Origin: Allacma fusca
Lineage: Eukaryota; Arthropoda; Collembola; Symphypleona; Sminthuridae
Length of the DNA stretch: 64,000 nt
Assembly (NCBI GenBank): GCA_947179485.1
Contig: OX359248.1
Span: 32,497,378-32,561,377 of the forward strand
Reading direction: 5' to 3'
Made by a program: the position numbers and the translations under genes. This document shows, piece after piece, positions 6,543 to 55,873 of the stretch. The notes under the pieces are model-generated. The model was not told the DNA's origin and made no database searches. It worked only from the letters and a program-made list of their open reading frames with translations. Position 1 is the first letter of the stretch. Each line of letters opens with the position of its first letter.

Positions 6543-6971
6543 TAATGTTAGGGAAATCCCGAGTAACTCACAGGACGGACTGACAAAAACATCAGTCCGG
6601 ACGGATTGGGAGTGGGATTGGGATTGACTATTTGAATGTACAGAGGGATTGAGACGGAGTGGGATTGACGCAAATATGTAGAAAACTGAGTGGGATTGAT
6701 GTTCAGAAATTATTCCACATTAACTTAATTAATTTAGTTAATTTAATTTAATTTAATTAATTAGAGGCGCTTTTTAAAATTGGCGCGGTATGTACGCATG
6801 CGCGCGCAGCGCGTGAGATTGAGTGGGATTGACTATCAGGATTGTGTGTGTGCATCAGAGGGATTGGGAGTTTTCTCTATGGTACATAGAGTGATTGGGA
6901 CGGAGTGTGAAATGAGGTATCGAGATTGGATAGGGATTGGGATTGTAAGAAGAGGGATTTCCCTAACATTA
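6543..6971. mobile_element. hAT-like MITE with GGGATTGGGA motif array
   Basis: A 429-bp non-autonomous element. Both ends carry the inverted repeat TAATGTTAGGGAAATCCC, and the insertion is flanked by the perfect 8-bp direct repeat TGCCACAC (6535-6542 and 6972-6979). The terminal TAATG fits the hAT end consensus YARNG, and an 8-bp TSD is typical of hAT. The subterminal sequence is filled with variants of GGGATTGGGA and GGGATTGAC in direct orientation. It has no coding capacity. Confidence 0.85.
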
Positions 6972-6979
6972 TGCCACAC

Positions 6980-8649
6980 TCACGAACAGTGTCTCACAGG
7001 CACAGACTCTATATACGCTACAGGATGATTCTATATACGCTGCAAGGTCGCGTTCCCTATGTATGCATGGCTTCGGCATGTGAAGTGAAACCAGTGCGAC
7101 ATGCGAATCCCTTAGCCTTAGTTTCTGCCTATGGGCTCGATCACATATCACGGTCAGGGAGCGTTCATAAATCATGTCAACCAAACGTTTCAATTGTTAG
7201 GGCTCATAGGTATGTCAGCTCGTGGTACCCACCTTAGTTGACGGCGAAAACCTTTCGAAATCAAAGCTTTCATGCAGATTTGGGTTGAACTATAAGATAG
7301 CTGCTAAAATTTAAAATCGGAATAATAAGGACGGAGCAATTAATGAGAGCTTCTGTGTGAATATGTGTGTAAATACCAAGATTAGGGAAAAATTGAAATT
7401 GCCGAAGAAAAAATGCGTTTAGGGGCAAATAAAGGGCAAAGTTGGCTTCAAAGAGGATTCACATCTGTATAAGGTCAGGTCCAGACTGAAAAGGAATCAG
7501 TCGGTCCTGAGCGGCCGAGGCAGGAGGACCTGGAGAGGGCGGCGTGAGCGTGGGGCTCACACGGAGAGGTCCCTAGGAGGGTGGCCGGGTTTGACCACTG
7601 TGATCCGTGGGCTTGACAGTTGACCATGGCCAGCTACACCTGCCGTGGCCAAAAATACTCATAGGTTGAAACTGGAAATTCTAGAAGAACGGATGTTTTA
7701 CAAAATTCGTAATAATTTAGAATTTTTAAGAACTGATATTCAATTTTATTGTAAATTGGGTTAATAGTACAAACGTTGGGGAAGCTTTTCCAACTGATTG
7801 CGAATGCTTGATTATTTCTTAATTTGTCATATATTTTAAATTTTAAAACAATTCTGTGAGCCTGGCTGAAGGACATTTGAATATATTAGATAACGTTTTG
7901 TGAATGGGGTTATAACCCGATACCCACGGGTAGTTGTTTCAGAGTTCGATATAGTGGTTTTTGAAACTCTAAGAGATGCACATTTTTCTCATTTGTGGTT
8001 TTTAGATATTAATGATGTCGATAACTATAACTGCAGCACTTATGCATATCAATAAGCTGAATTTTTAGGGCACACATTGTGGGCGAGGGTTGATTTGGGT
8101 TAAATGTCCCATCATCACATAATATTAATGGCATACATGTTTGTATGTCTGGACCGGATGTTACATATTCAGTAAAATATCAGTATAAACGTCTCTGTAT
8201 AAAGACCAGCCCGGAAACATTTAGTTGGTCAAAGTTAATCTCTTGCTCTGACGATGATGCCAAGGAGTACAAAAACGGAAGAATATTATCTAAAAAAGTG
8301 TATTTCAGTTATAAAAAATACAGCAGTAGGAATTATAAAGCAAAATAAACGTGTACAGTGTGAAATTAAAATGAATTGTGAATGCCACTAAAGTTGAGTA
8401 CAAATAATTTGTCCCGGTCTGTACCACTGGCTAGTTCCGAAGACTGAAACAAAGGTTTTGAAAGTTTGCCTAGAAATTATTAATTTGCCAAATGGTCTGT
8501 CATTTTCAAGCACAATTAGTGTAACTCTCACGGACCAGGTATCATAGAATTACGCATTTGGGATAGCCAATGGCGATAGTAAGTAGGACGAAGAGAAGAA
8601 GGACGACGGCCGCGCTGTTGGGCTTGGGCTCTTGTTTGCGGATCGCTAC
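6980..8649. other. Intergenic region with a GC-rich block
   Basis: No recognisable gene. Open frames near 7634-7876 (minus) and 8145-8348 (plus) match nothing I know and lack supporting signals. A short, distinctly GC-rich stretch at about 7490-7645 stands out from its AT-rich surroundings; its function is unknown. Confidence 0.5.
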
Positions 8650-9809
8650 TCAACTGACAATTACGACGACTTTGGGAATTGACCCAGGAAAAATCATTCT
8701 CCAACAATGGAAGTAGCTGAACAGTAGAAGAGCAGCTGTGGTGAAGAAACTGAGCAACATAGGACAGAGCTCTACAGATAGGAGGTGTCTTCTCAATGTT
8801 GGATTGTTTCTACCGTACACAAAATTCCATCTCCCAGGGATTCGAAGCAAACACCCCTATCAAGTCGATGTTACTCATCAATTTAATTTTTTTGTCAGGG
8901 ACGTTCAAGTCAGATTTCTTACCTGTGTGGCAAGCGACGCATTTTGGATGCAGGACTGATTACTGCAACATGAAGCTGGTAAGGGATAATAGCTACCTGC
9001 AGATGATTTGTAATCACTCAAGCCGTAAGCACCGCAGCATTGCTAAAAGTAGATTTACTTGAGTAATTATTACCTAATTCATAAACATTTGAAGACCAAT
9101 TTACAAGGCAACGCTTGATATAGTAGTCTTACACCGTGTCTCTGAACATATTCAATAAACTGAGATGGTTTCCCGGTTCTACGCAAGCTATTACGAAGGG
9201 TTTTCGATGCAGACTTAGCATCGGGTGACCAATTAAACAGGGCTGCGCATAGCATGCTTCCCAGTAGAAGAAACACCAGGGAAATATAGATCTAATTCGC
9301 AACGAAAATACATTGTATTGCATACTGTAAAATCAAAATCCTTAAAATATGCTTTTGCAAACGTATGTAGCCACATATGTAAAAGTACATTCAATGTAAA
9401 AATAAACTACGTAAAATATCTGTACCCCTCCAATGAATCGATTCCCCCCATATCCAACCAGGACAATAAAGAACGCCACCAGGGATACTAATACCAGTCC
9501 AGAAGTCACTGCAAATAAAACCACGTACCCTATTTCCTGTACCCTGTCCGCTGGCCCTATTCTGACAAATGCAAATGCATAGCCGATTAATACGCCAATA
9601 AACATGAGCTGAAACATAAAAGCAAAACACAGTATAGAGATTTGGCAAGGACAAAAAATGGGGTAGCCTAAAAATAAATGCGTCAATTCTAGGATCAGGA
9701 TGTATTCAATTATTTAGAGCTTAGAACTTACAGCAACAAGTAGAAACCCATATTTGCCAGCGCTCGCAGTCCTCCTCTTCACTACAATTGATGGTGTTGA
9801 GGAATCCAT
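8650..9809 (-). CDS. Tetraspanin, 253 aa
   Basis: Five exons: 9732-9809, 9411-9608, 9133-9291, 8923-9042 and 8650-8856. All introns are phase 0 and the predicted protein is 253 aa. Tetraspanins are four-pass membrane proteins that organise other membrane proteins into microdomains. TM1 spans exons 1-2 (KYGFLLVA joined to LMFIGVLIGY), TM2 is in exon 2, TM3 in exon 3 (IYISLVFLLLGSMLC) and TM4 in the last exon (ELCPMLLSFFTTAALLLF). The large extracellular loop has the hallmark CCG (QCCGAYGL at the start of exon 4), a second CC (PASCC), a further Cys and the closing GC (GCLLRIPG). The exon 2 donor could instead be 9425, which would drop five residues between TM2 and TM3. The subfamily could not be assigned. 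It lies 478 bp downstream of another tetraspanin on the same strand, so the two form a small cluster. Confidence 0.85.
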
Positions 9810-13505: not shown

Positions 13506-13705
13506 NNNNNNNNNNNNNNNNNNNNNNNNNNNNNNNNNNNNNNNNNNNNNNNNNNNNNNNNNNNNNNNNNNNNNNNNNNNNNNNNNNNNNNNNNNNNNNN
13601 NNNNNNNNNNNNNNNNNNNNNNNNNNNNNNNNNNNNNNNNNNNNNNNNNNNNNNNNNNNNNNNNNNNNNNNNNNNNNNNNNNNNNNNNNNNNNNNNNNNN
13701 NNNNN
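13506..13705. other. Assembly gap (200 N)
   Basis: A run of exactly 200 unknown bases, a common placeholder for a gap of unestimated size. The sequence to its right begins in the middle of a repeat unit (13706 corresponds to 20555), so the tandem array probably continues into the gap. Confidence 0.99.
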
Positions 13706-13899
13706 CATACAAATTATAATTAAATTATAAAAAATCACATTTGATCAGCACGTTATCCTGATCCACTAAGGGGCGAAGCACCATACAGTGTTGCAACAGC
13801 AAGATTTAATAACAATGGAATGTTGGTATTAAGTTGATTAAGCGATTATTTAAATTTTCCGTGTATAATATTGAGTTTGGGATAGAACCTAGGTGAGCC
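13706..13899. repeat. Truncated end of an L unit
   Basis: The last 194 bp of an L unit (equivalent to 20555-20748), cut by the gap. It shows that at least one more L unit lies to the left. Confidence 0.9.
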
Positions 13900-15369
13900 G
13901 TCTTAAATTGTTGTGTCAAATATAATCTCGTATATATCTCGTATATAGAAGGTTTATAATAGGTTGTCTATTTCTCGGAGGAAGAGTAAATTTTTTTGCC
14001 TTTAATTAGATTGACGGAAGCCGCGAGGGTCTATTCAACTGCAGTCGGATTTCGGATTGTGATTTTCGTGACTGCACAACATGACCTGATTAAAGTAGTA
14101 AGCTTTCGGGACCGTCTTAAATTGTTGTCAAAAATAATCTCTGAGGATAAGAAAAATGGTCCTGATGCATTCGAGATGTGAGCGAAAATTCGTACATACA
14201 CTTGTACTCGTGGCAAAGTTGACCACGTCCATTACTGATTATAGGTAGTGACGCCAATGGTCTGGTCTGATCCAGATTTTATGAAACTGTCTAATAAAAA
14301 GCTCACACCAGACCATTGGGCTGGTCTAGTTTATCGGACCAGACCAATGGTCTGATCCACTCGTTCGGATCAGACCAGACCAAAGACCATGGTCCAGAAA
14401 ATCATTAAGAGCAAATAAATAGTAATAAAATTATAAATCTGAATCTGAAATAAATAGTAATCACATTTTATGCAGTCAAATGTTTCTTTTATCCCCAGAA
14501 ATGTCAGTTTTAATTGGTTCCATTCGATGGGATTTCCTTAACTCATAAATTTTTATTTTGCGAACTTTTGAGACCATGGTCCTGTGGTCTGGTCTGGGCC
14601 TGAAGCTGGACTAATGGTATCTGTCCTGGTCCAAGTTTTGGATCAAACCGGACCAGACCAAAAATGAACCATTTATAATGTTCCGGACCAGACCATTGGC
14701 ATTCCTAATTATAGGTATACCCCTTGCTATTTGTCCACTACGTGTCTTCACAAATTAGTTAGTTACAAGTTTCTCTCGACTGTTGGTTAAACTAGTATTA
14801 GGATATCACTCCTAAAATATTTCAATATATGAAGGTAAGCAATTGTAAGCAAAGATTCCATGAGAAAATCGTCAATGAAGACGCAAAATGATTCAGATTC
14901 ATCTTCGATTAATTCAAAATGGTTTACTAATCTTCTTGCTGTTAGGTCTAATTACATAAGTGGCTGCTAGTCACGTTCAATTTAAAATGGGTTACTTGCA
15001 ATTTTAACAAAAATCAATATAAATTACATACATACATATTTTAATCGCATCATCATGTAGATCCCTTTGATTGATTAGAAACTGCATGTAGACCATTTTC
15101 CCTTACATTTTGAAACCAGGCAGTCCACTTTGAATCTTGATAAGATTTGGCCCACGCAATTGTCGCTTTGATCAACAAATCATCTATACTATTGTGGTTA
15201 TTCTATAAGGATATTTTTTTCGTTTTAGTCAAATCCGTTTCTCATGACATTCCAATCAAATCCGATGGGACAGTAAAGAATGCCGGGGCAGACAAAATTA
15301 TTTTCACAGTGGGACCATGCAAAATAAACTTGCATGACCTGATATGACCTGTATGAAGCTTTCGGGACC
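13900..15369. repeat. S unit 1 (1470 bp)
   Basis: S head with the long form of the MITE (14246-14707) followed by the S-specific tail. Confidence 0.95.
14246..14707. mobile_element. hAT-like MITE of the GGTCTGGTC family (amplified within the array)
   Basis: Ends TAGTGACGCCAATGG and CCATTGGCATTCCTA form an inverted repeat, and the perfect 8-bp TSD ATTATAGG flanks it (14238-14245 and 14708-14715). The interior is dense in GGTCTGGTC/GACCAGACC in both orientations. All units share this insertion and its TSD, so insertion preceded amplification. Other copies: 15716-16177, 17186-17612, 18621-19047, 21095-21556, 22565-22991, 25039-25500, 26509-26935, 28983-29444, 30453-30879, 32927-33353 and 35401-35827. 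The 427-bp form lacks 35 bp. Confidence 0.88.
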
Positions 15370-16839
15370 GTCTTAAATTGTTGTGTCAAATATAATCTCG
15401 TATATATCTCGTATATAGAAGGTTTATAATAGGTTGTCTATTTCTCGGAGGAAGAGTAAATGTTTTTGCCTTTAATTAGATTGACGGAAGCCGCGAGGGT
15501 CTATTCAACTGCAGTCGGATTTCGGATTGTGATTTTCGTGACTGCACAACATGACCTGATTAAAGTAGTAAGCTTTCGGGACCGTCTTAAATTGTTGTCA
15601 AAAATAATCTCTGAGGATAAGAAAAATGGTCCTGATGCATTCGAGATGTGAGCGAAAATTCGTACATACACTTGTACTCGTGGCAAAGTTGACCACGTCC
15701 ATTACTGATTATAGGTAGTGACGCCAATGGTCTGGTCTGATCCAGATTTTATGAAACTGTCTAATAAAAAGCTCACACCAGACCATTGGGCTGGTCTAGT
15801 TTATCGGACCAGACCAATGGTCTGATCCACTCGTTCGGATCAGACCAGACCAAAGACCATGGTCCAGAAAATCATTAAGAGCAAATAAATAGTAATAAAA
15901 TTATAAATCTGAATCTGAAATAAATAGTAATCACATTTTATGCAGTCAAATGTTTCTTTTATCCCCAGAAATGTCAGTTTTAATTGGTTCCATTCGATGG
16001 GATTTCCTTAACTCATAAATTTTTATTTTGCGAACTTTTGAGACCATGGTCCTGTGGTCTGGTCTGGGCCTGAAGCTGGACTAATGGTATCTGTCCTGGT
16101 CCAAGTTTTGGATCAAACCGGACCAGACCAAAAATGAACCATTTATAATGTTCCGGACCAGACCATTGGCATTCCTAATTATAGGTATACCCCTTGCTAT
16201 TTGTCCACTACGTGTCTTCACAAATTAGTTAGTTACAAGTTTCTCTCGACTGTTGGTTAAACTAGTATTAGGATATCACTCCTAAAATATTTCAATATAT
16301 GAAGGTAAGCAATTGTAAGCAAAGATTCCATGAGAAAATCGTCAATGAAGACGCAAAATGATTCAGATTCATCTTCGATTAATTCAAAATGGTTTACTAA
16401 TCTTCTTGCTGTTAGGTCTAATTACATAAGTGGCTGCTAGTCACGTTCAATTTAAAATGGGTTACTTGCAATTTTAACAAAAATCAATATAAATTACATA
16501 CATACATATTTTAATCGCATCATCATGTAGATCCCTTTGATTGATTAGAAACTGCATGTAGACCATTTTCCCTTACATTTTGAAACCAGGCAGTCCACTT
16601 TGAATCTTGATAAGATTTGGCCCACGCAATTGTCGCTTTGATCAACAAATCATCTATACTATTGTGGTTATTCTATAAGGATATTTTTTTCGTTTTAGTC
16701 AAATCCGTTTCTCATGACATTCCAATCAAATCCGATGGGACAGTAAAGAATGCCGGGGCAGACAAAATTATTTTCACAGTGGGACCATGCAAAATAAACT
16801 TGCATGACCTGATATGACCTGTATGAAGCTTTCGGGACC
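15370..16839. repeat. S unit 2 (1470 bp)
   Basis: Near-identical to S1; one visible difference is ATGTTTTT in place of the T-run near 15459. MITE at 15716-16177. Confidence 0.95.
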
Positions 16840-18274
16840 GTCTTAAATTGTTGTGTCAAATATAATCTCGTATATATCTCGTATATAGAAGGTTTATAAT
16901 AGGTTGTCTATTTCTCGGAGGAAGAGTAAATGTTTTTGCCTTTAATTAGATTGACGGAAGCCGCGAGGGTCTATTCAACTGCAGTCGGATTTCGGATTGT
17001 GATTTTCGTGACTGCACAACATGACCTGATTAAAGTAGTAAGCTTTCGGGACCGTCTTAAATTGTTGTCAAAAATAATCTCTGAGGATAAGAAAAATGGT
17101 CCTGATGCATTCGAGATGTGAGCGAAAATTCGTACATACACTTGTACTCGTGGCAAAGTTGACCACGTCCATTACTGATTATAGGTAGTGACGCCAATGG
17201 TCTGGTCTGATCCAGATTTTATGAAACTGTCTAATAAAAAGCTCACACCAGACCATTGGGCTGGTCTAGTTTATCGGACCAGACCAATGGTCTGATCCAC
17301 TCGTTCGGATCAGACCAGACCAAAGACCATGGTCCAGAAAATCATTAAGAGCAAATAAATAGTAATCACATTTTATGCAGTCAAATTTTTCTTTTATCCC
17401 CAGAAATGTCAGTTTTAATTGGTTCCATTCCATGGGATTTCCTTAACTCATAAATTTTTATTTTGCGAACTTTTGAGGCCATGGTCCTGTGGTCTGTTCT
17501 GGGCCTGAAGCTGGACTAATTGTATCTGGCCTGGTCCAAGTGTTGGATCAAACCGGACCAGACCAAAAACGAACCATTTATAATGTTCCGGACCAGACCA
17601 TTGGCATTCCTAATTATAGGTATACCCCATGCTATTTGTCCACTACGTGTCTTCACAAATTAGTTAGTTACAAGTTTCTCTCGACTGTTGGTTAAACTAG
17701 TATTAGGATATCACTCCTAAAATATTTCAATATATGAAGGTAAGCAATTGTAAGCAAAGATTCCATGAGAAAATCGTCAATGAAGACGCAAAATGATTCA
17801 GATTCATCTTCGATTAATTCAAAATGGTTTACTAATCTTCTTGCTGTTAGGTCTAATTACATAAGTGGCTGCTAGTCACGTTCAATTTAAAATGGGTTAC
17901 TTGCAATTTTAACAAAAATCAATATAAATTACATACATACATATTTTAATCGCATCATCATGTAGATCCCTTTGATTGATTAGAAACTGCATGTAGACCA
18001 TTTTCCCTTACATTTTGAAACCAGGCAGTCCACTTTGAATCTTGATAAGATTTGGCCCACGCAATTGTCGCTTTGATCAACAAATCATCTATACTATTGT
18101 GGTTATTCTATAAGGATATTTTTTTCGTTTTAGTCAAATCCGTTTCTCATGACATTCCAATCAAATCCGATGGGACAGTAAAGAATGCCGGGGCAGACAA
18201 AATTATTTTCACAGTGGGACCATGCAAAATAAACTTGCATGACCTGATATGACCTGTATGAAGCTTTCGGGACC
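16840..18274. repeat. S unit 3, hybrid (1435 bp)
   Basis: Carries the L-type MITE (17186-17612, lacking 35 bp and with the L-specific substitutions) joined to the S-specific tail. It is therefore a recombinant unit with its breakpoint between about 17630 and 17672. Confidence 0.9.
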
Positions 18275-20748
18275 GTCTTAAATTGTTGTGTCAAATATAA
18301 TCTCGTATATATCTCGTATATAGAAGGTTTATAATAGGTTGTCTATTTCTCGGAGGAAGAGTAAATGTTTTTGCCTTTAATTAGATTGACGGAAGCCGCG
18401 AGGGTCTATTCAACTGCAGTCGGATTTCGGATTGTGATTTTCGTGACTGCACAACATGACCTGATTAAAGTAGTAAGCTTTCGGGACCGTCTTAAATTGT
18501 TGTCAAAAATAATCTCTGAGGATAAGAAAAATGGTCCTGATGCATTCGAGATGTGAGCGAAAATTCGTACATACACTTGTACTCGTGGCAAAGTTGACCA
18601 CGTCCATTACTGATTATAGGTAGTGACGCCAATGGTCTGGTCTGATCCAGATTTTATGAAACTGTCTAATAAAAAGCTCACACCAGACCATTGGGCTGGT
18701 CTAGTTTATCGGACCAGACCAATGGTCTGATCCACTCGTTCGGATCAGACCAGACCAAAGACCATGGTCCAGAAAATCATTAAGAGCAAATAAATAGTAA
18801 TCACATTTTATGCAGTCAAATTTTTCTTTTATCCCCAGAAATGTCAGTTTTAATTGGTTCCATTCCATGGGATTTCCTTAACTCATAAATTTTTATTTTG
18901 CGAACTTTTGAGGCCATGGTCCTGTGGTCTGTTCTGGGCCTGAAGCTGGACTAATTGTATCTGGCCTGGTCCAAGTGTTGGATCAAACCGGACCAGACCA
19001 AAAACGAACCATTTATAATGTTCCGGACCAGACCATTGGCATTCCTAATTATAGGTATACCCCATGCTATTTGTCCACTACGTGTCTTCACAAATTAGTT
19101 AGTTACAAGTTCCTCTGGACCTTTTTGTATTTAAGGTCACTTGCTTGTATGGTTCTTTTTTCATAACGGTTGGAGCTTCTGTGGGGAACTAGTTTTGTGT
19201 TCCGCAGAAGGTTACGTCACGTCGCGATATCCTCGGAAGAAAAAAAAACCTCCTTGTAAACTAAATGCAAATGAATTTCCAATTTTTCCTCCACGTTCGA
19301 GTCAAATGTTTTAGAGTAAACTTATTTCCGGGCTGACCGGAAAAAATCCATGAAGTCGGAAATGTTTTGGAATTTTCCCTGGCGGGGTTGCCGAAAAAAA
19401 TCGACGCAGTCGGAAATATTTTGGAATTTTCCCTGGCGGTTTCGCCGGCAAAAATAGACGCAGTCGGAAAATGTCCGAAAATGTGGCTGGTGGGGTCGTC
19501 GGGAAAGTCGATGAAGTCGGTTTTTTTGGAATTCCGTCATGGTCGGAGATTTTAGATATCGGGGAAGTAATCAAATTTTTGGAAATTTGGCTGGAGGGGA
19601 CGTCGGGAAATTCCGACGCAGTCGGAAAATTTTCGCAGATATGGCTGTCGGGGTCGTCGGGAAAACACGGTGAAGTCGGATTTTTTAAAGCAAAATTTCG
19701 CAATTATTTGAGGTATTCTTGTAGAAATAAAGGAATGTGGAGCATTTCATAAGACTGGGATTAAAACCGGGACGTCCCGTCCCGAGGTTTTCGGGACGGG
19801 ACCGGGATTGGGACAGTTTCGGGACAAAAGTTTTGTCCCCATGTAATTTCGGGACTGAATCGGGACGATTTTTTTGTCCAGAGGATTTCGGGACGGGACA
19901 GAATTGCCACCGGGACAAAAATATTGTCCCCAGTAGAAGCCCTACTTCCAGTAGACTTCCCAAGTCCAATTTCCTCTAGTAAATCCAGAACGTCGTGTCT
20001 CTGTCTGTGTGTCGATATTCAAACCCACAGCGAATGCTATCTACTCATGTGTTATGGTTATGGAATTCAATCTCCATGAATTAATTGCAATCTGATTATT
20101 TTGTCAAATCGAAGCCGAAAGGTCACAATGCTCTATCAATCAAACTAAATGTACTTTCTTATTTTCCAGACCTTAAGAATTTGAGGAGAGGAGAAATATA
20201 GTGACTGAACTTTGTGCCCATAAGTGTGGGTTTCCTATGAGGGAAAATCAAATGGAATTGAAAGTACTTATTGTAACACTATATTTACGTCAGTTAATTT
20301 CTCAAATACTGTATTGCTGAAGTTATTTGCTCACTATTTTTTAATTACTAGTCCTAACATGCACATTTGATCTTTATATCCCCTAAAATACCATTAGGCA
20401 ATAAGGATTGATTTGTAGGAACCATGAATTTTAGTGATTGTAGCACGTGAAACGTGTTGCGCTTCTATCAATTCCTGTCATTTTTCCTATTTTAAATAAT
20501 CAGTGCGTCCAGTGTTGGAGACATCAGTCACATTATTAGGGTACAACCGAGCTACATACAAATTATAATTAAATTATAAAAAATCACATTTGATCAGCAC
20601 GTTATCCTGATCCACTAAGGGGCGAAGCACCATACAGTGTTGCAACAGCAAGATTTAATAACAATGGAATGTTGGTATTAAGTTGATTAAGCGATTATTT
20701 AAATTTTCCGTGTATAATATTGAGTTTGGGATAGAACCTAGGTGAGCC
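18275..20748. repeat. L unit 1 (2474 bp)
   Basis: Head with short-form MITE (18621-19047), divergence from S after 19111, minisatellite 19345-19680, GGGAC-rich block, then the segment shared in inverted form with 47291-48352. Confidence 0.95.
19345..19680. repeat. GACGCAGTCGG minisatellite inside L units
   Basis: Roughly 55- to 65-bp degenerate units, each with GA(C/T)G(C/A)AGTCGG, a GGAATTTTC-type spacer and (T/C)GGCGGGGTTG or TGGGGTCGTCGG. It recurs in every L unit (23289, 27233, 31177 and 33651 onward) and is longer at the array edge (36110-36625). The open frames through it are by-products of the repeat. Confidence 0.85.
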
Positions 20749-20749
20749 G
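19680..20749. mobile_element. 1070-bp L-specific segment, probably mobile
   Basis: The distal part of each L unit, containing a GGGACGGGAC-rich block (19760-19925) followed by about 800 bp without motif repeats. A diverged inverted copy of exactly this segment sits alone at 47291-48352, outside the array. Its edges there (next to ATTTTTTAAAGC and GGTGAGCCG) coincide with unit-part boundaries here. No clear terminal inverted repeat or TSD was found, so the element class is open. Confidence 0.6.
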
Positions 20750-22218
20750 TCTTAAATTGTTGTGTCAAATATAATCTCGTATATATCTCGTATATAGAAG
20801 GTTTATAATAGGTTGTCTATTTCTCGGAGGAAGAGTAAATTTTTTTGCCTTTAATTAGATTGACGGAAGCCGCGAGGGTCTATTCAACTGCAGTCGGATT
20901 TCGGATTGTGATTTTCGTGACTGCACAACATGACCTGATTAAAGTAGTAAGCTTTCGGGACCGTCTTAAATTGTTGTCAAAAATAATCTCTGAGGATAAG
21001 AAAAATGGTCCTGATGCATTCGAGATGTGAGCGAAAATTCGTACATACACTTGTACTCGTGGCAAAGTTGACCACGTCCATTACTGATTATAGGTAGTGA
21101 CGCCAATGGTCTGGTCTGATCCAGATTTTATGAAACTGTCTAATAAAAAGCTCACACCAGACCATTGGGCTGGTCTAGTTTATCGGACCAGACCAATGGT
21201 CTGATCCACTCGTTCGGATCAGACCAGACCAAAGACCATGGTCCAGAAAATCATTAAGAGCAAATAAATAGTAATAAAATTATAAATCTGAATCTGAAAT
21301 AAATAGTAATCACATTTTATGCAGTCAAATGTTTCTTTTATCCCCAGAAATGTCAGTTTTAATTGGTTCCATTCGATGGGATTTCCTTAACTCATAAATT
21401 TTTATTTTGCGAACTTTTGAGACCATGGTCCTGTGGTCTGGTCTGGGCCTGAAGCTGGACTAATGGTATCTGTCCTGGTCCAAGTTTTGGATCAAACCGG
21501 ACCAGACCAAAAATGAACCATTTATAATGTTCCGGACCAGACCATTGGCATTCCTAATTATAGGTATACCCCTTGCTATTTGTCCACTACGTGTCTTCAC
21601 AAATTAGTTAGTTACAAGTTTCTCTCGACTGTTGGTTAAACTAGTATTAGGATATCACTCCTAAAATATTTCAATATATGAAGGTAAGCAATTGTAAGCA
21701 AAGATTCCATGAGAAAATCGTCAATGAAGACGCAAAATGATTCAGATTCATCTTCGATTAATTCAAAATGGTTTACTAATCTTCTTGCTGTTAGGTCTAA
21801 TTACATAAGTGGCTGCTAGTCACGTTCAATTTAAAATGGGTTACTTGCAATTTTAACAAAAATCAATATAAATTACATACATACATATTTTAATCGCATC
21901 ATCATGTAGATCCCTTTGATTGATTAGAAACTGCATGTAGACCATTTTCCCTTACATTTTGAAACCAGGCAGTCCACTTTGAATCTTGATAAGATTTGGC
22001 CCACGCAATTGTCGCTTTGATCAACAAATCATCTATACTATTGTGGTTATTCTATAAGGATATTTTTTTCGTTTTAGTCAAATCCGTTTCTCATGACATT
22101 CCAATCAAATCCGATGGGACAGTAAAGAATGCCGGGGCAGACAAAATTATTTTCACAGTGGGACCATGCAAAATAAACTTGCATGACCTGATATGACCTG
22201 TATGAAGCTTTCGGGACC
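20749..22218. repeat. S unit 4 (1470 bp)
   Basis: Long-form MITE at 21095-21556; first half of the first full 3944-bp S+L period. Confidence 0.95.
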
Positions 22219-40515: not shown

Positions 40516-40523
40516 TGGCTTAC

Positions 40524-45893: not shown

Positions 45894-46379
45894 TAGTGCT
45901 GCCATATGTTCAGGACTGATCCAAACTGCCCCGGAGGAAGGAAAGCGTATTGGTTGATACAAACAGTTTGGGAGGCGCATAGATCATTTGTAAGCAGTCC
46001 TTTAAATACTTCGACTCCTTTGCCACCACCGCGTGTGTTCCACCTTAGTCTATAAATACCAGACTTGATTCTCATGTTGTAGACACTGTTGAATGACTTT
46101 GGTAATCACTTGAACCTTCGTTGTATTTAAACGTTAATGCAATGAAAACATGCTTAGACTCCTCGCGGCAGGCAAGAGAACTTGTTCCAGCTGAAATCAC
46201 AATGAAAATACAATCCCGTCTTGCAATTAATGTCAGGCTTGCTTAATTCCCTAAAAGATCGAAATACCGATGGATTTACCCTGTAAGTTGAAAAATATTT
46301 TAAATTGCTGAAGCAGATATGTTTTTTCGACAAAAAACTTCACTAGAATGATTCTTTCATCATTACAAACTACTTTTAA

Positions 46380-46697
46380 AATTTGCGGGTAAGCCAAGGC
46401 TTTGAGCGGGTTAAATAGAGTCGTCAACTATGGCAAAGCATAATTGTAAGAATGGAAGCAATCTCAACTATTACCAATTTCATTTTTAAAAGTCGGAAAT
46501 GCAAAATTGCATTAGATAGATGATTTAGCTCTAGCTGTAAGGATGTACAAGCCGAACTGGTATTTACGGTCCTTCTTTGCTTCTGCATGCCAAGCGGGCT
46601 TTATCGTTGAACTTCACTTTCGGACCGGGCTGGCAAGGTGAAATTACGCACCGCGGGAGGTCACATGCCTAAAGTATCCTACTGGGTGATGCTCTAC
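46380..46697. mobile_element. Decayed MITE of the TAGAGCATC family
   Basis: Clearly related to 50335-50669 in the same orientation (GCGGGTAAGCC near the left, GATGCTCTA at the right) but heavily diverged; left terminus and TSD not recoverable. Confidence 0.6.
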
Positions 46698-47290: not shown

Positions 47291-48352
47291 CGGCTCACCT
47301 AGGTTCTATCCCAAACTCAATATTATACACGGAAAATTTAAATAATCGCTTAATCAACTTAATACCAACATTCCATTGTTATTAAATCTTGCTGTTGCAA
47401 CACTGTATGGTGCTTCGCCCCTTAGTGGATCAGGATAACGTGCTGATCAAATGTGATTTTTTATAATTTAATTATAATTTGTATGTAGCTCGGTTGTACC
47501 CTAATAATGTGACTGATGTCTCCAACACTGGACGCACTGATTATTTAAAATAGGAAAAATGGCAGGAATTGATAGAAGCGCAACACGTTTCACGTGCTAC
47601 AATCACTAAAATTCATGGTTCCTACAAATCAATCCTTATTGCCTAATGGTATTTTAGGGGATATAAAGATCAAATGTGCATGTTAGGACTTGTAATTAAA
47701 AAATAGTGAGCAAATAACTTCAGCAATACAGTATTTGAGAAATTAACTGACGTAAATATAGTGTTACAATAAGTACTTTCAATTCCATTTGATTTTCCCT
47801 CATAGGAAACCCACACTTATGGGCACAAAGTTCAGTCACTATATTTCTCCTCTCCTCAAATTCTTAAGGTCTGGAAAATAAGAAAGTACATTTAGTTTGA
47901 TTGATAGAGCATTGTGACCTTTCGGCTTCGATTTGACAAAATAATCAGATTGCAATTAATTCATGGAGATTGAATTCCATAACCATAACACATGAGTAGA
48001 CAGCATTCGCTGTGGGTTTGAATATCGACACACAGACAGAGACACGACGTTCTGGATTTACTAGAGGAAATTGGACTTGGGAAGTCTACTGGAAGTAGGG
48101 CTTCTACTGGGGACAATATTTTTGTCCCGGTAGCAATTCTGTCCCGTCCCGAAATCCTCTGGACAAAAAAATCGTCCCGATTCAGTCCCGAAATTACAAA
48201 ACTTTTGTCCCGAAACTGTACCAATCCCGGTCCCGTCCCGAAAACCTCGGGACGGGACGTCCCGGTTATTATCCCAGTCTTATGAAATGCTCCACATTCC
48301 TTTATTTCTACAAGAATACCTCGAATAATTGCGAAATTTTGCTTTAAAAAAT
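47291..48352. mobile_element. Inverted solo copy of the L-specific 1070-bp segment
   Basis: Reverse complement of 19680-20749 with scattered substitutions and small deletions (total 8 bp shorter), including its GGGAC-rich block (about 48105-48270). It shows that this segment moves or was copied independently of the array. Confidence 0.88.
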
Positions 48353-48429
48353 ATTTATATATAGAATAACAAATTTTAAAAGGAACAATTCCCATACATA
48401 TTCATTTTTACAGCAATAGTATACTGTAC

Positions 48430-48496
48430 AAGAATATTTTTCCGTCCCGTCCCGAAACTGTCCCGATCCCGGTCCCGTCCCGAACAGAAACCCTAA
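48430..48496. repeat. GTCCCGTCCCG fragment
   Basis: A short block of GTCCCGTCCCG / GGTCCCG motifs ending AGAAACCCTA, related to the end of the GGGAC block in the neighbouring segment (GAAGCCCTA). Confidence 0.6.
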
Positions 48497-48672: not shown

Positions 48673-48693
48673 ACTCGGTTTGCTTGCTGTATA

Positions 48694-49228
48694 TACCAGG
48701 ATCCACCAGTCCCTACCTTTTTCAGTCCAAGTCAAAATCAGTCTTAAGTTCCTGATCAGTCAGTCAGTCCTTAAGTCTGTTTGCAGTTTCCTATGAGTCT
48801 CAGTCAGTCACAGTCATTATAAGAGTCACTCGAATAAGTCACAGTCTCAGAGGACAATGTGAAAATTTCAAAAATACCTATTTTTTGTAATTTTCTTGTG
48901 CTGCATTTCAATACGATTGATGACCTGGAATCTGCTTTTGTAAAATACTACGAAAATCTCCAATATTTTCAATGTAGATTTATATCATAGATTTTACATA
49001 GCTCCGCTAGGTACGTTGTGTACGCTTTATGATTTTCTTGATTCCTACATTGTTTTAAGCGTTCGTCTCAGTCTCAGTCAGTCCCGATGATTCAGAAATA
49101 AGTCTAAGTCAGTCAAAGTCTTGAGCTGCAGTTAGATTTATCAGTCGCAGTCTCAGTCAGTCATCAGTCAGTCACTCAATGTTGCAGTCAGTCCTTCACC
49201 ATCAGTCTAAGACTGGTCTATCCTGGTA
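48694..49228. mobile_element. Non-autonomous element with CAGTCAGTC motif array
   Basis: Ends TACCAGGATCCACCAGTC and GACTGGTCTATCCTGGTA are inverted repeats. About 535 bp, dense in AGTCAGTC / GTCTCAGTCAG near both ends with an AT-rich centre. No clear 8-bp TSD; short TATA-type flanks are present on both sides. Same architecture as the hAT-like MITEs, but assignment is uncertain. Confidence 0.65.
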
Positions 49229-49876: not shown

Positions 49877-50161
49877 CAGTGCTGCCCGTTCGCTTTCTCA
49901 TCTAGTCAATTCTAGTCCGCTACGTTCACCAACTGTACTATTCTATTCCTATTCTATTCATATCTGGTTGTGACGAGTCTATTCTAGTCTGTTCCAATTC
50001 CCTCAATAAAATCCGAGTCTATTCCAAGTCTATTCACCTATTCATAATACACCACAAACAAATGCAGGTTCAAGAAATGTGACGTTGCTGAGAAAGAAAA
50101 GCTGCGTTTCTTTGAGCTTCCATGTATAAATAGAAAGGAACTTCCATCACGCATTGTTAGG

Positions 50162-50925
50162 TAGGGATGCCAATGGTCTGGTCCGGTCTGTTTCCAGATT
50201 TGTATGGTCTGGTCCGGTCTTGTCCCATATTTGTATCTGGTCCGGTCTGATCCAACACTTGGACCAGACCAGATTCAATTGGTCCAGCTTCCTGACCATG
50301 GGCCCAAAAGTACGCAGAATTAAAATGTATGAATTAGAGCATCTCGAGCGGTTGAAATTTGCGGGTAAGCCGGTAAAAAGCCCGGCAATCGCGCTAAGGA
50401 GGTACATCAACTCTGGCCAAACATAATTGTAAGAATTCTGCAGTGGAAGCAACACCAGTTCTTGCCAATTTCATTCAAAAAAAGGCGAAAATGAAAAATT
50501 GAATAAAAAAATTGTTCTGGGTCTATAGATATGGATTTACAAGCTGGACTGGTATTAGCGGGCGGGCTACGGGCTTTTTTAGATTTTACGGGCCGGGCTT
50601 TATTGTTGAACTTTAATTTCGGGCCGAGGGCGGGTACGGGCCTAAAATATCCCACATGGCGATGCTCTAGTATGAATTAGCAAAATCCTATGGGACAAAT
50701 TAAAACTGTCATTTCTGAGGATAAAAAAAGAATTTGACTATTGAATGTGATTATTTAATTGCTCTCAATAGTTTTCTGGACCATGGTTCGGTCTATGGTC
50801 TTTGGTATGGACTGGTCAGACCATGGGTCTGGTCCGAAAAACTGACCAGTCCAATAGTCTGGTCTGGGCTATGGACCAGACCAGTTTCATGAAATCTGGA
50901 TCAGACCAGACCATTGGCATCACTA
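50162..50925. mobile_element. hAT-like MITE, GGTCTGGTC family, interrupted
   Basis: Ends TAGGGATGCCAATGG and CCATTGGCATCACTA; perfect 8-bp TSD TTGTTAGG (50154-50161 and 50926-50933). Contains a younger insertion at 50335-50669. It is absent from the homologous position of the inverted relative at 52956-54802, which gives an empty-site comparison. Confidence 0.9.
50335..50669. mobile_element. Nested hAT-like MITE of the TAGAGCATC / GGCCCG family
   Basis: A 335-bp element with ends TAGAGCATC and GATGCTCTA and perfect 8-bp TSD GTATGAAT (50327-50334 and 50670-50677). GGGCCGGGC and GCGGGCTACGGG motifs lie towards the right end. Same family as 38023-39436. Confidence 0.9.
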
Positions 50926-51901
50926 TTGTTAGGTAAATTCTTAAAGCATCATTATTACTCAGGTAGCTGAATTGGAAACAGCCCTAAGCTGCTCGTTCAG
51001 AATCGGAATCTGGTTTTTAAAGGAGCAAAATCAAAATATTTAACGTTATTTCGATGAAGCTTGAGATCGTTGAAGTACTGGTAATAGCATCTTTCTTGAC
51101 AAGGTTTGGTTCATTCGGCTGTGGCTTGGGAGCTGAGTTACTCAATTTTTTCGTCTTTGGTTTTGACAAACTCGACGGAGGGTTGTTAAGTTCAATATTA
51201 TTTAAAAAATGATATCTGATGTGGTTTTAATGGCAATTGGCGACATATCAGCTTTAATCATGGAGTAAGTTTCGCTAGTGTGGGGGGGGTTTCTATTTGT
51301 TCTCCCCGTTTTGGGGGATATTAATAACAAAAATCTAGTCTTTTGTGACTGTCACACATCAGTTTTGAAAACTTCCCTTATTCGAAATCCCCAAACTCCG
51401 CTCGTGTAACAAAAATCTAGTTTTTTGTTACAGTTCTGGTTAAATCAAAGGATTTAAGGGGATAATGCTGAAACTTAAAGGGTAATTTGGTTAAAAGTGT
51501 CTTAATAAACCAAATGCAAGTGTGGGAAGAATTTCCATGTAAAAAGAAAAGCACAGCATGGTAATATGACTGACATGCATTGCAGAAGTATGCAGAACGG
51601 ACAAAATGTGAAACTGTATAAACGCAAATTTTAGCCTGTGTGTCAGCCCAAATGTTTGCTTGTCCCCGTAGTGCAGTTGAAAGGCTCACAGTCCTCCTTA
51701 CATAAGGGAATAGTTATATCTCCATAGTAAATTCTATATCCCTTCTATGTTGACATTCTGAGTATTCTGGTCAACTCTATTCCTTTTTAAATTGCAGCAA
51801 ATCTATACAAGTCTAGTCTATTCAATTTGCTCCTACACCCGGGCTATTCTATTAAATTTCCCTAGTCGGGGCATCCCAAACATAGGCGCCTGCCTAGATT
51901 C

Positions 51902-52746
51902 TAGAGCTACTTTTGGGATCGGGATACACCCGGGAATTGGGTTCGGGATTGGGAACGGGTTCGAGTTCGGGTGTCTAATTAATGTTCCCAAATACTTTGG
52001 GACCAGGTTCAGGAACATGCTCAGCAGACCCGGGATTTCGGGATCGGGACCGGGTTTGGGAACGGGTTCAAGATTGATGTAGGTATTTGTGTTCCCGTCG
52101 GGAACTGGGAACATCTTCGTTCCTACACCCGTTACACGCTTCACGTTCCCGGGAACTACGCATCCATCTAGCGGAGAAAAAAATACCCTCGGCATCCCAC
52201 GTTAAAGTGTTGAGATAATAATTTTGCGTGAGCGACTTGAGCATATTGTCAGTTGGGATCGCATAGTAGTGATTTCCGCCTACTCTAACTTGCAAGATGA
52301 AAGTCATTGCAAAACCCATAGTGGGAATCGTTTAAGCAGTCTTCCTGCAGCTTTTTCGGCAACGCAGACCAGACGTTTAGTTTGATGACCATTTTTAATA
52401 GTGCCTAAATCTATTGTTGCATGGTACGCATGCATAAGTATTGCGAAATCAATAAAAATGTGAAGAAAAAATTTGATTTACACTAACTGTACTGGTCCCG
52501 GGAACGAGTCCGGGTTCAAGGGATTTGGGATCGGGATTGGGAGCAAATTTTATCTGATTTCGGGTTCGGGATCGGGATCGGGTTTGAGTTCAACGATTGA
52601 AGTATATTTAATATTTGGGTTTTTGTGCACCCGATCCCAGTATTTCGGGAACGGGTTCGGGTTTGAGTCCGAAAATATTGATGACTCGATTTTCGGGATC
52701 GGGTTCGGGAATGGGATCAAACTTTTCGTTCCCACAAGTAGCTCTA
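51902..52746. mobile_element. hAT-like element with GGGATCGGGTTCGGG motifs
   Basis: An 845-bp element. Ends TAGAGCTACTTTTGGGA and TCCCACAAGTAGCTCTA; perfect 8-bp TSD CTAGATTC (51894-51901 and 52747-52754). Motif blocks at about 51913-52065 and 52495-52730 flank a roughly 400-bp ordinary centre that may itself contain a fragment of another insertion. Confidence 0.88.
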
Positions 52747-52955
52747 CTAGATTCTAGGCCTTATAATAGGCTAAGGCTCTAGGATGCCGCAAGTTGGCAT
52801 AAAGATCTAGGCGAGGTTCTAGGCTGGGCAATCACCACTACAATATAGGCTTAGGGAAAATCTAGGCCATTCGGATATTTCCGAACAAGGGACTGGGCTA
52901 TTCAGGCGGGCTTTAAATTTGTTCAAGTACAGGCTAGGCATTAGTGGTGAGCGGA

Positions 52956-54802
52956 CAGTGCTGCCCTAGTCTAGTCCGACCAGACTAGGAAACTAGGGAA
53001 TTGAATAGAATAGCCGGGGTTTAGGAGCAAATTGAATAGACTAGACTTGAATAGCCTTGCTGCAAATTAAAGAGGAATATAATAGACTAGAATACTCAGA
53101 ATGTTAACATAGAGGGAATAGACTAGAATTGACTAGGGCGATAGCACTATTCCGTCGTCTAAGGAGGAATGTGAGAATATCAAACATATGACTAAAAGAC
53201 TTTATCCACAAGGACATATTGTGGTGCTACGCATTTTTTTATAATTGTGAAAACTCACCTCACACTTGCCATTTCATTAAATATTTTGTGTTTATTATGG
53301 CACTTTAACCAAATTACGCTTTAAGTTTCATCAGTATCTCCTTACTTCCTTTGATTTAACCAGAACTGTAACAAAAAGCTGATTATTGTTCCACGAGCGA
53401 AGTTTGGGGTTTTCAGAACTGAAGTGTGGCAGTAACAAAAGACAAGATTTTTGTTATTAATATTCCCAAAACGGGGAAAACTCCCCTCACATTTCCGAAA
53501 CTTATTCCACGATTAAAGCTGTTCTGTTGCCAATTGCCATTAAAACCAAATCAGGTTCTTGCACGCCAGCAGTAGTTTTAAAAAAAGATCTGAACTTAAC
53601 AACACTACGTCGAATTTGTCAAAACCAAAGACGAAAAATCATCGCTCTGCGATTATTTAGGGATGTCGCGTAGGCGGGTGTGGAAAAAGTTCCCAATGGT
53701 CAACGATCCTGACAACAGTAAATGGTCTACTAACCCGCTGGGGTAAGATGGCCAACAACCCGCCGAAAATTTTTGGTCAACTACCTGGGTATCGCAAAAC
53801 AAATTTGGCCAACTATCAAAAATTTTTGGTCAACTGCGTGGGTATCGAAAAAAAATGTTGGCCAACTACCAAAAAGTTTTGGTCAACTACCTGGGTATCG
53901 AAAAAAAATTTTGGCCAACTATCAAAAACTTTTGGTCAACTACCTGGGTATCGAAAAATAATTTGCCCAACTACCAAAAATGTTTGGCCAACTACCTGAG
54001 TAACCAAAATTTTTTTACCCAACTACCTGAGTAACCAAAAATTGTTTGGCCAACTACCTGGGTATCGAAAAATAATTTGCCCAACTACCAAAAATGTTTG
54101 GCCAACTACCTGAGTAACCAAAATTTTTTTACCCAACTACCTGAGTAACCAAAAATTGTTTGGCCAACTACCTGGGTATCGAACAATTTTTTTGGCCAAA
54201 TAACCCGCCAGTGTTTTTCAAAATGGCCAACTATCCCGCCGTTCAATGTTGCCCAACTAGTTTGCTCATTGGAAAGAAGCTCATTTGGAAAATAAATATG
54301 AAAATTTGTAACAGTTTTAAAAAAAAATAAAGGTAGTAGTACACGGAACAAGATGTTATTCAAAGTACTTCAACGATCTCAAGCTGCATCGAAAAAACTT
54401 CTATTAAATATTCTGAGTTTGCTCCCTTGAAAAACCAGATTCCGATTCAGAACGAGCAGCTTAGTGCTGTTTCCAATTCAGCTACCTGGGTAATAATGAT
54501 GTTTTAAGAATGTACCTAACAAGCGAGATACAAGTTCCTTTCGATTTTTACATAGAAGCTCAAAGAAACGCAGTTTTCCTTTCTAAGCAAAGTTACATTC
54601 CTTGACGCTGCTGTTGTTTGTGGTGTATTATGAATATGAATAGACTAGGAATAGACTAGGATTTTGTTGACTTGGAGGGAATTGGAATAGACTAGAATAG
54701 CCAAGCCACAAGCAGATAAGAATAGAATACGAATAGAATAGTACAGCTTTAGTACGTAGTGGACTAGAATTGACTAGACTAGAAAGGGAACGGGCAGCAC
54801 TG
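52956..54802. mobile_element. hAT-like element with GACTAGAATAG motifs (1847 bp)
   Basis: Ends CAGTGCTGCCCTAGTC and GGGCAGCACTG; perfect 8-bp TSD TGAGCGGA (52948-52955 and 54803-54810). GAATAGACTAG motifs fill both subterminal regions. The interior is non-coding and includes a minisatellite (53755-54190). An inverted relative forms 49877-51866. Confidence 0.88.
53755..54190. repeat. GGCCAACTACCTGGGTATCG minisatellite
   Basis: About eight imperfect units of roughly 55-60 bp, each made of two half-units (GGTCAACTACCTGGGTATCG, then GGCCAACTACCAAAAA). The left-arm relative lacks the block, so it arose within or was inserted into this copy. Open frames across it are low-complexity artefacts. Confidence 0.85.
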
Positions 54803-54987
54803 TGAGCGGAACATTCTCAAAGCACGGATTGGTTAGGCTAGGTTTACAAGGTCTTTGGAACAACGTTTGCAGAGACGGACAGCCAATGAGGCGGGAATTA
54901 GTTGATACCAGATACAAGTAATTACCAGAGTATATGCACATGTATACCGCAGTACATGCATAATCGTCCATATTTATTACCACTGGA

Positions 54988-55486
54988 TAATGTGTTTCAA
55001 AATCCCTATAGGGATCGTTCATATCTCTTGTACGTCTTTTACCACATGTAGCTATCCCGTCCGTATCTATTCAAATGAGCTCCCGCTCAAGTCCCCTCCG
55101 TTCCATATCTTATTTGTAGCTCATAAATAACGTCCCTATCCGTTTCTGGTCCCTCACCTATCGCATATCTCTCCGTACCACACAAAATGCATGAATGACC
55201 CCCGAGTTTGTGCACGCAGTAACAGCCGGTCGAAGCCACTTTTAGAAATAAAAAGGAAACATCGTTTAGACTTAACTGGTCTCGTCTAGCCTAGTCTGTT
55301 CTAACTAAGTACTAAGTATTTTTTGTAACCGTTTGCGTCCGTCTTATGTCATTTGATCAGCCCGTCCCGTCCGTCTGTATCCACTATTCTTGCATGAATT
55401 TTCCGTCCCGTCCTACTCATTTTTATCTATCCCGTCCTGTTTTTTATCGTCCCGTCTTAGGACGTATCTCGTTTTGATACACATTA
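54988..55486. mobile_element. hAT-like MITE with CCCGTCC motifs
   Basis: A 499-bp element. Ends TAATGTGTTTCAAAA and TTTTGATACACATTA; perfect 8-bp TSD CCACTGGA (54980-54987 and 55487-55494). The CCCGTCC/CCGTCCCG motif is dense near the right end and sparser at the left (TATCCCGTCCGTATC). Confidence 0.88.
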
Positions 55487-55873
55487 CCACTGGATACTAT
55501 GTATAGGTTACTTTACTCCTGCAAATCAAACCCCTACGTTGATATTCCAAATTCCAACTGCATGTGATCATTGCATACGGTTTGCACTTGCACCTTTGCA
55601 CTATCTAAAACTCACAATTATATCGCCTATATAGGCTGGGAACGCGCTGTCAGAAGCTATACAGTAAATATAGGCAGGCAAGCAATACACATTAGGACAG
55701 GTATGGGCTAATAGGCAGGCAGTTAGAGTACTTGACCCTTGGTATTAAGGCTCTTCTTTTCGTGGAAACATCCTATTGGCCTATATAGGATGGCGATATT
55801 TTTTGAAAGAAAATAGGCAGGCTATAGGCTTAGGCGCTTCATTTGCCCATCTTTGGGCAGCACTGCTTCAAGT

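Follow-up and report, generated by a model that had tools for sequence, protein, structure and literature searches.

Which mobile elements filled the window (the whole 64,000-nucleotide stretch of the Allacma fusca genome analyzed here) with insertions, and what are the short words repeated near their ends? Short terminal inverted repeats (TIRs) and 8-bp target site duplications (TSDs) typify the hAT superfamily, whose end consensus is YARNG, and hAT transposases comprise a BED part, an RNase H fold, and a C-terminal dimerisation part. At least nine hAT families have very probably left 13 or more insertions in the window, mostly short and non-autonomous elements moved in trans by hAT transposases, which would read the words with BED fingers (Table 1). 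The TSDs, the recurring ends, and transposase-bearing relatives of the same plan identify the elements as hAT, mostly non-autonomous.

Perfect 8-bp repeats had been claimed in an earlier note for eleven intervals, and identical flanks were found at all 11 with exact coordinates. All 11 insertions are real, but the list was incomplete: two more occur at 48096-48495 and 48697-49225, and the single insertion to which 14246-14707 belongs is present in 12 tandem copies. An interval search required YARNG at both ends, TIRs differing at no more than 4/11 positions, and 8-bp TSDs without mismatch. It was run on the window after most of the tandem array had been cut away, leaving the first part. It returned 11 intervals: 48096 and 10 of those in the earlier list. 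In 100 block shuffles the mean was 0.11 and the maximum 2, so TSD identity is well above chance. With TSD lengths of 6, 7, 9, 10, and 11, the same rule gave 1, 3, 0, 0, and 0 intervals; length 5 gave 12 in the real window alone, which we judged to be chance. YARNG, claimed for every terminus, holds at 21 of 22 and fails at the right end of 14246-14707 (TAGGA). Other ends outside the consensus are CAGGA (family J), TAGAC (an insert in locus L042) and, beyond the window families, CATAC/CATGC (AZ3, AZ5) and CAGTC (AZ2). An Rfam scan gave no match at the gathering threshold, and no transposase matched in the window parts scanned, the Pfam scan covering six frames of 50900-55600.

Table 1. Insertions and related features of the window.
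Feature	Position	Strand	Details
Family G hAT MITE, 429 bp	6543..6971	+	TSD TGCCACAC, TIR TAATGTTAGGG
Family A hAT MITE	14246..14707	+	TSD ATTATAGG, ends TAGTG/TAGGA; first of 12 tandem copies
Tandem array	13898..36000 (bounds approximate)	.	Unit spacings 1435, 1470, 2474 bp
Family F hAT element	38023..39436	+	TSD CTGTCTTA, TAGAG ends; split by family E element
Family E hAT MITE inside the F element	38355..39041	+	TSD GCCTGCTA, TIR TAAGGCTTCCATCCGA
Family A hAT MITE	40113..40515	+	TSD TGGCTTAC
Decayed family F copy	46376..46696	-	About 67-68% identity
Family H hAT MITE, newly found	48096..48495	+	TSD ACTGGAAG, TAGGG ends
Family J hAT-like element, 529 bp, newly found	48697..49225	+	TSD GTATATAC, ends CAGGAT
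Probable composite insertion	49877..55865	.	TSD CTTCAAGT, CAGTGCTGCCC at both outer ends
Inverted family C copy, left part of probable composite	49877..51866	-	Right boundary inferred
Family A hAT MITE nested in C copy	50162..50925	-	TSD TTGTTAGG
Family F hAT MITE inside the family A MITE	50335..50669	-	TSD GTATGAAT
Family B hAT MITE	51902..52746	+	TSD CTAGATTC, TIR TAGAGCTACTT
Family C non-autonomous hAT	52956..54802	+	TSD TGAGCGGA
Family D hAT MITE	54988..55486	+	TSD CCACTGGA, TIR TAATGTGTTTC

The ends of seven families (A, B, C, D, E, G, and H) have tens to hundreds of matches across the genome. Family G has 51 matches, 43 of them full-length at 417-431 bp, which fits a MITE (short, non-coding, uniform, and in many copies); among copies fetched from BLAST matches with identity above 90%, all eight, including 6543-6971, carry different perfect TSDs. 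For A, B, D, E, and H, MITE copy numbers are counts of end patterns: 992 matches for A, 431 for E, and 578 for H (reversed controls 0 in each case), 218 for the left end of B (control 1), and 27 for D (control 4). All five fetched copies of D have perfect TSDs, one being the same insertion in another copy of the segment; four are 499 bp long and one 1316 bp. For family C, all 62 zero-mismatch left ends (from the best 100 of 544 matches) were paired with all 84 right ends. A convergent right end lies within 15 kb of 46 of the 62, a same-strand neighbour was found for five and a divergent one for none. Lengths range from 247 to 5873 bp, with one pair at 11269, so C is not a strict MITE family. 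It also has an internal minisatellite, unrelated to its ends.

Unoccupied sites record individual insertions. The family B element is absent, with a single CTAGATTC, from all three other copies of its segment, and the family C element at 52956-54802 is a paralogous site that lacks the A insertion of 50162. An 808-bp insert in L042 (TSD CTTTTAAC) is absent from the window. Nested and repeated structures are also present. Perfect terminal repeats and a perfect TSD bound the interval 49877-55865, whose left part carries the C array and whose right part carries a TAGGC array; it is probably a composite with a boundary near 51866, which suggests that the same array is not required at both ends. Its right part was considered as an independent multi-copy family and rejected: the exact right end occurs at four places only, which are the four copies of this same segment, and one further match has three mismatches. 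Remnants of the C coding copy survive in the left part, itself a C copy, as 51 codons at 51059-51208, and in the element at 52956 as two short pieces. In the tandem array, at about 13.9-36 kb, every one of the 12 copies of the family A insertion is flanked by ATTATAGG, and a family H end occurs five times (19680-19944 and four more).

Arrays of short words lie near the ends of the elements. The claim that most families are filled with their own motif largely stood: summed repeated 7-mers exceeded all 200 dinucleotide shuffles in 13 of 14 element sequences and equalled the maximum in the F element at 50335. The commonest single 7-mer merely equals the shuffle maximum in this element, in the F element at 38023, in D, and in O_right. 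The motifs were also said to point inwards from both ends; instead, one strand runs through both ends in six of nine families (G, B, D, H, C, and J). With words picked by eye, plus and minus counts are 9 and 0 for G (GGGATTG, 6543-6971), 17 and 0 for B (CGGGWT, 51902-52746), 6 and 0 for D (CCGTCC, 54988-55486), 14 and 2 for H (GTCCCG, 48096-48495), and 10 and 1 for C (TAGAMTAG, 52956-54802), while J (CAGTC, 48697-49225) has 10/0 at the left and 13/1 at the right. Families A (GGTCTGG, both orientations) and E (TATCCGATCGGATA) are mixed, and F (ACGGGC/CCCGTA) is partly mirrored. Under a fixed word rule, with J left out, D gives no word, and E, AY, and B fail; A and AZ3 are mixed, F is partly mirrored, and AZ4 is mirrored, so one-strand arrays are not universal.

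Architecture is shared where sequence is not, as had been proposed: the words differ, and a pitch of 5-6 bp recurs in 12 of 15 families (duplicate-family rows C_52956 and AZ3b dropped). This pitch is about half a helical turn. Words picked by eye were counted in eight elements, five of the transposase-bearing ones described below and three from family C: of 127 copies, 123 are within 400 bp of an end, and the other four are deeper than 800 bp. Arrays are concentrated at the ends of the long elements tested, and they are spread over much of the short ones.

Transposase-bearing elements elsewhere in the genome support the hAT assignment: their ends are similar, their TSDs are equally long, and their arrays follow the same plan. 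The hAT dimerisation domain (PF05699) scored above cut-off at 150 places of 860 first-look candidates, of which 30 were taken as loci and 12, picked for array signal and variety, were read on both sides. Matching ends and a perfect 8-bp TSD surround the transposase at eight of these 12 (a raw count), and the same eight carry a repeated short word at both ends, in seven different combinations of word and end. A TIR and TSD pair was not found at the other four (L013, L023, L028, and L027). A looser end search at L013, L023, and L031 added nothing, the ends of L031 having already been found by the earlier search. Array scores of at least 15 occur beside the transposase at 21 of the 30 loci, which include copies of the same family, and in none of 16 control segments (maximum 12), the threshold having been set after both sets were seen.

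Pairing of window families with coding elements, as the earlier note proposed, succeeded for family C, with the same ends and motif, but the 30 transposase loci held no convincing window-family end. The search for a coding partner by pairing ends covered family C alone; A, B, D, E, F, G, H, and J have no known exact partner. The coding member of C (L049) is 5873 bp long, with the family's own ends and word and TSD ACGGAGAC. It has a BED zinc finger (21.3 bits, cut-off 20.6) and hAT transposase pieces that match other hAT loci; PF05699 gave no match in it, and a PDB search with one exonuclease-side piece gave none. Because the coding pieces fall in different frames, through introns or decay, this copy may be dead. 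Families E and C have cousins with similar, non-identical ends. PF05699 is present in cousins AX, AY, and AZ2. Among five elements scanned for BED, it was found in L049 and, at 20.1 bits, just below cut-off, in AY, and it was not found in AX, AZ2, or L050.

By analogy with Hermes and Ac, the catalytic domain of a transposase would act at the short terminal repeat, while the several BED fingers of the multimer would bind private 5-6 bp words just inside it, and short non-autonomous members would be moved in trans by cut-and-paste. Each word is plausibly a binding site for its own transposase. One transposase for each motif, and fast co-diversification of the two, may be inferred. With words on one strand, an array read inwards from the left tip differs from one read inwards from the right, and this difference could help pair left with right. 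We tentatively suggest that the layout is conserved while its letters are free: a 5-6 bp pitch within roughly 200-400 bp of the tips and a polarity, usually of one strand through both ends, that would mark left and right in place of sequence, with new families perhaps arising by change of BED and word together.

Similar systems are described in the excerpts available of three papers. Maize Ac/Ds elements have 11-bp terminal repeats, 8-bp TSDs, copies of the hexamer AAACGG that the transposase binds within the terminal 200 bp, and numerous non-autonomous members, among them short ones and deletion types (PMC3260210). The window families resemble Ac/Ds in their terminal repeats, TSDs, short subterminal repeats, and non-autonomous members. 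However, the 64-kb window alone contains nine or more families with other words, and seven further transposase-bearing families in the genome carry others again, all known here from sequence. Hermes of Musca domestica has 8-bp TSDs with an nTnnnnAn preference and BED sites (AAGT/C) that cluster near the tips, with an orientation that differs between the left and the right end. According to the excerpt, activity showed no dramatic drop when inner putative BED sites at the left end were mutated, which speaks against our reading of the words (PMC10368747). Our elements are like Hermes in TSD and in the layout of the words, as putative BED sites, near the tips, but the words differ in sequence and often fill much of a short element. 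The hAT-19 and CGG-binding proteins combine BED domains with DNA-binding domains of the Hermes type and prefer a variety of 8-mers, often CGG; the motifs of four hAT proteins match the subterminal regions of their own elements, and the coelacanth has at least eight distinct motifs in one genome (PMC8097297). These proteins are mostly domesticated, whereas here the words belong to elements with TSDs.

This kind of element is already known, and what is noteworthy is the number of different words and their frequently shared direction and spacing. Neither hAT elements of springtails nor arrays sharing strand and pitch appeared among the matches listed in open-licence literature. In this one genome, numerous hAT families, each with its own putative recognition word, stand beside transposases with words of their own, and near-identical copies of one segment differ by insertions. 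It offers material to test joint change of BED-finger specificity and end recognition, and to learn whether hAT elements in general have polar ends or Hermes alone does.

All families could instead be mobilized by one or a few promiscuous transposases acting on the YARNG end, in which case the words would have no role in specificity. YARNG is common to most window ends, the probable composite has unlike arrays together with perfect terminal repeats and a perfect TSD, and in the Hermes right-end complex, as described in the excerpt, no BED contact was seen (PMC10368747). We consider this explanation unlikely in view of the 150 hAT dimerisation matches and the seven combinations among eight loci; the terminal 200 bp of Ac, with its hexamers, is also needed for wild-type transposition (PMC3260210, excerpt).

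The arrays could also be by-products, tandem duplications produced by slippage or aberrant gap repair and family-specific since each family had one founder sequence. In its favor, the words are near-tandem at a 5-6 bp lag, tandem growth within one end would give one orientation, and family C has its internal minisatellite, which is unrelated to its ends. Some Ds1 elements move without Ac hexamers, and the Ds-l elements with hexamers that were tested showed no excision (PMC3260210, excerpt). By-product growth is nevertheless improbable, as it sits poorly with the concentration of the words near the ends and with the recurrence of one word, frequently with its strand unchanged, at two ends that lie kilobases apart; the binding of hexamers by Ac transposase (PMC3260210) and the four protein motifs that match their own subterminal regions (PMC8097297) also argue against it. 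Chance pairing of 8-mers and inverted repeats we take as refuted: a looser rule (any end, at most 2/11 mismatches) does yield 1 to 5 intervals in each of 20 shuffles, but under the stricter rule shuffles gave almost none, the ends recur genome-wide with independent TSDs, and unoccupied sites exist.

The TSDs themselves have a base bias. In the pooled set, T at position 2 or A at position 7 occurs in 32 of 68 cases (p=0.006 against 0.31), and both occur together in 6 of 34 TSDs against 3.3 expected, which is in the direction of the Hermes nTnnnnAn preference.

The insertions in the window, with their directly observed ends, target site duplications (TSDs), arrays of short repeated words and families, and the transposases seen elsewhere in the genome, are mostly ordinary hAT biology, and the observation in the earlier note is real and well described. 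The strand and pitch of the words are the part worth following up. Perfect 8-bp TSDs had been claimed for eleven intervals, and identical 8-bp flanks were found at 11/11. A scan requiring YARNG (the hAT end consensus) at both ends, at most 4/11 end-to-end mismatches and a perfect 8-bp repeat, with most of the tandem array removed, recovered 11 intervals, whereas 100 block shuffles averaged 0.11, placing the TSDs well above chance. Ten of these were already listed, and 48096-48495 had been overlooked. The claim that YARNG occurs at every terminus holds for the ten recovered intervals and fails at the right end of 14246-14707, which is TAGGA and was therefore missed by the scan. Families were assigned from end sequence, motif and BLAST.

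hAT-type families in the window (A-H, J) and transposase-bearing elements elsewhere in the genome (AX-AZ5), with genome-wide end-pattern matches (reversed-pattern control in parentheses)
Family or element	Window position or length	Repeat sequence	Genome matches (control)
A	14246; 40113; 50162		992 (0)
B	51902		left end 218 (1)
C	52956; inverted copy 49877-51866		left end 544 (0); right end 84 (0)
D	54988		27 (4)
E	38355		431 (0)
F	38023; 50335; relic 46376-46696
G	6543
H	48096		578 (0)
J (thirteenth insertion)	48697-49225	ends CAGGAT; TSD GTATATAC; CAGTC array
AX	4900 bp	TACGGTAA
AY	3339 bp	ATTGTACT
AZ1	5125 bp	GTAAGGAC
AZ2	3574 bp	GTCTAATG
AZ3	4640 bp	TTTGAGGC
AZ3, second copy	4645 bp	GTATAAAA
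AZ4	4206 bp	CTTCCGCT
AZ5	4452 bp	GTTTGAAC

Genome-wide searches covered an assembly of 392,743,791 bases in 91 contigs; end patterns of families A, B, C, D, E and H were counted on both strands with 1 to 3 mismatches allowed. Family G has at least 43 full-length copies among 51 matches, and the eight copies fetched all had perfect, mutually different TSDs. All five fetched family D copies had perfect TSDs, one of them being the window's own insertion in another segment copy. A convergent family C right end lies within 15 kb of 46 of the 62 exact left ends (divergent, 0; same-strand neighbor, 5), and the pairs span 247 to 5873 bp, plus one of 11269. One D copy (L058, C1:72450867 region; perfect TSD CCGCAAAG) is 1316 bp instead of the usual 499, and therefore probably contains a nested insertion.

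In long elements, repeated words are concentrated at the ends. Summed repeated 7-mers exceeded all 200 shuffles in 13 of 14 window element sequences; when only the most frequent single 7-mer is counted, four sequences tie the shuffle maximum. Array scores of at least 15 occurred beside transposases at 21/30 loci, which include several copies of one family and perhaps a few arrays outside the element, compared to 0/16 control segments. In eight long elements (AX, AY, AZ1, AZ2, AZ3 and three from family C), 123/127 copies of the words lay within 400 bp of an end. For AX, 13/17 words lay within 200 bp of an end and one was more than 800 bp deep; for L049, a long family C member, 12/12 lay within 200 bp.

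PF05699, the hAT C-terminal dimerization domain, was scored at 150 places among 860 candidates. At 8 of the 12 transposase loci read on both sides, the element was bounded by repeats at its ends and by a TSD of 8 bp without mismatch; none were found at L013, L023, L028 and L027. The commonest terminal words in transposase-bearing elements are GTAGAG, CGGATA, GTAACG, AAGGCA, GAACTC, CCTTCA and ACTGAA. PF05699 is present in AX, AY and AZ2, and AY has a BED match of 20.1 bits, slightly below cut-off. The suggested pairing of families with autonomous elements succeeded in part: L049 (5873 bp, TSD ACGGAGAC) is a coding copy with family C's own ends and words, while AX (for C) and AY (for E) resemble the window families in ends and words only as cousins. 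L049 has a BED match at 21.3 bits and pieces resembling other hAT loci, including AX; a search of it for PF05699 gave no match. The window C copies retain short remnants of its coding region. Another long member of family C, L050 (3906 bp, TSD CTTAAAAT), matched nothing in Pfam across the three reading frames covered. In L049 (C10:56249300-56255360), a + strand frame that runs opposite to the transposase pieces also encodes PF01612 (3'-5' exonuclease domain; E 3.9e-16) and may be a captured host gene.

In most families the words had been described as pointing inwards from both ends. Instead, words picked by eye run on one strand through both ends in G (9/0, +/-), B (17/0), H (14/2), C (10/1), J (23/1) and D (6/0, with a single copy at left); A and E are mixed, and F is partly mirrored. 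When the word was instead defined as the most frequent 6-mer of the last 300 bp at each end, and at least a 2:1 same-strand bias was required at both ends, AX, AZ1, AZ2, AZ5, C, G and H passed. AZ4 was mirrored, D yielded no word, and AY, B, E, A and AZ3 fell short at one or both ends. The top word of F is also same-strand, but its five top words pooled run opposite (12:30). Seven same-strand families against one mirrored is only suggestive (two-sided sign test, p about 0.07). The words also have a pitch: compared to dinucleotide shuffles, lag 5 or 6 ranked in the top three at z of at least 2.0 in 12/15 families, and mean z was highest at lags 5 (2.78) and 10 (1.58). Element interiors had this pitch in 1/7 (C, lag 6, z 2.2). 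Family J, analyzed separately, peaks at lag 6.

By analogy with Ac (PMC3260210) and Hermes (PMC10368747), a transposase multimer would hold the words through BED fingers and would cut at the terminal repeat. hAT-type proteins have diverse binding preferences, and four matched their own subterminal regions (PMC8097297); the natural reading is therefore that different words are putative recognition sites for different transposases. However, the simple view is countered by passages describing some Ds1 elements that are mobile without hexamers and Ds-l elements that have hexamers and no excision (PMC3260210), and by a passage in which left-end inner BED sites of Hermes can be mutated without dramatic loss (PMC10368747). 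In section 8 of the latter paper, left-end STR2-7 are antisense and right-end STR1-5 sense, which would be the same one-strand layout as here if each end is drawn from its tip, as the legend suggests. No paper on springtail hAT elements was found among the open-licence papers listed.

The segment 49700-55000 occupies four genome sites, with hAT insertions partly shared and partly private. Its three other copies (L041, L042 and L043) include sequence beyond 49877 and are 93 to 99.8% identical to the window, counted in pieces above 90% identity only. The C insertion and its TSD are present in all three, with one base altered on one side in L043. Family B is absent from all three, each having a single CTAGATTC, whereas in the window two copies of it flank B. 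The A element with F inside it is also in L042, and L043 lacks that stretch; the C element at 52956-54802, a paralog of the C copy that A entered at 50162, shows this site unoccupied. Because B is absent from the other copies and A and F, nested in C, also occur in L042, B is probably younger, and A and F probably older, than the spread of the segment. L042 has a private 808-bp hAT-like insert (TAGACATGT ends, TSD CTTTTAAC, ACGGTA words), absent from the window and L041. Family E ends lie about 10 and 13 kb from the segment at its two sites on contig C8, suggesting that it is longer than 49700-55000.

The interval 49877-55865 is a probable composite whose two ends have CAGTGCTGCCC and TSD CTTCAAGT in common. 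Its left part is the inverted C copy, to about 51866; its right part carries TAGGC words (15 on +, 3 on -), and its right-end sequence occurs genome-wide only in the four segment copies plus one weak match. We infer that a C copy and other sequence with a C-type end moved jointly on one occasion, in which case transposition tolerated a foreign array at one of the ends.

Several minor features were also observed. In the tandem array 13898-36000 (spacings 1435, 1470 and 2474 bp), a single hAT insertion is multiplied 12 times, with 12 copies of a 300-bp core 100% identical; this is either a short non-autonomous element (MITE) turned into a tandem-repeat component or an assembly effect. The sequence missing from the short F copy at 50335 begins within about 5 bp of the E insertion point in the long F (38347-38354; 50384), and GCC is common to the join; this could be a trace of imprecise excision, or chance. 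A minisatellite with CCAACTACC words (53766-54192; periods of 21, 31, 53 and more bp) lies inside the C element at 52956, distant from its ends. On the minus strand, 43192-45427 holds three neighboring open frames; DUF7869 (E 6.3e-8) matches one of them, which may be a transposon protein of a different type.
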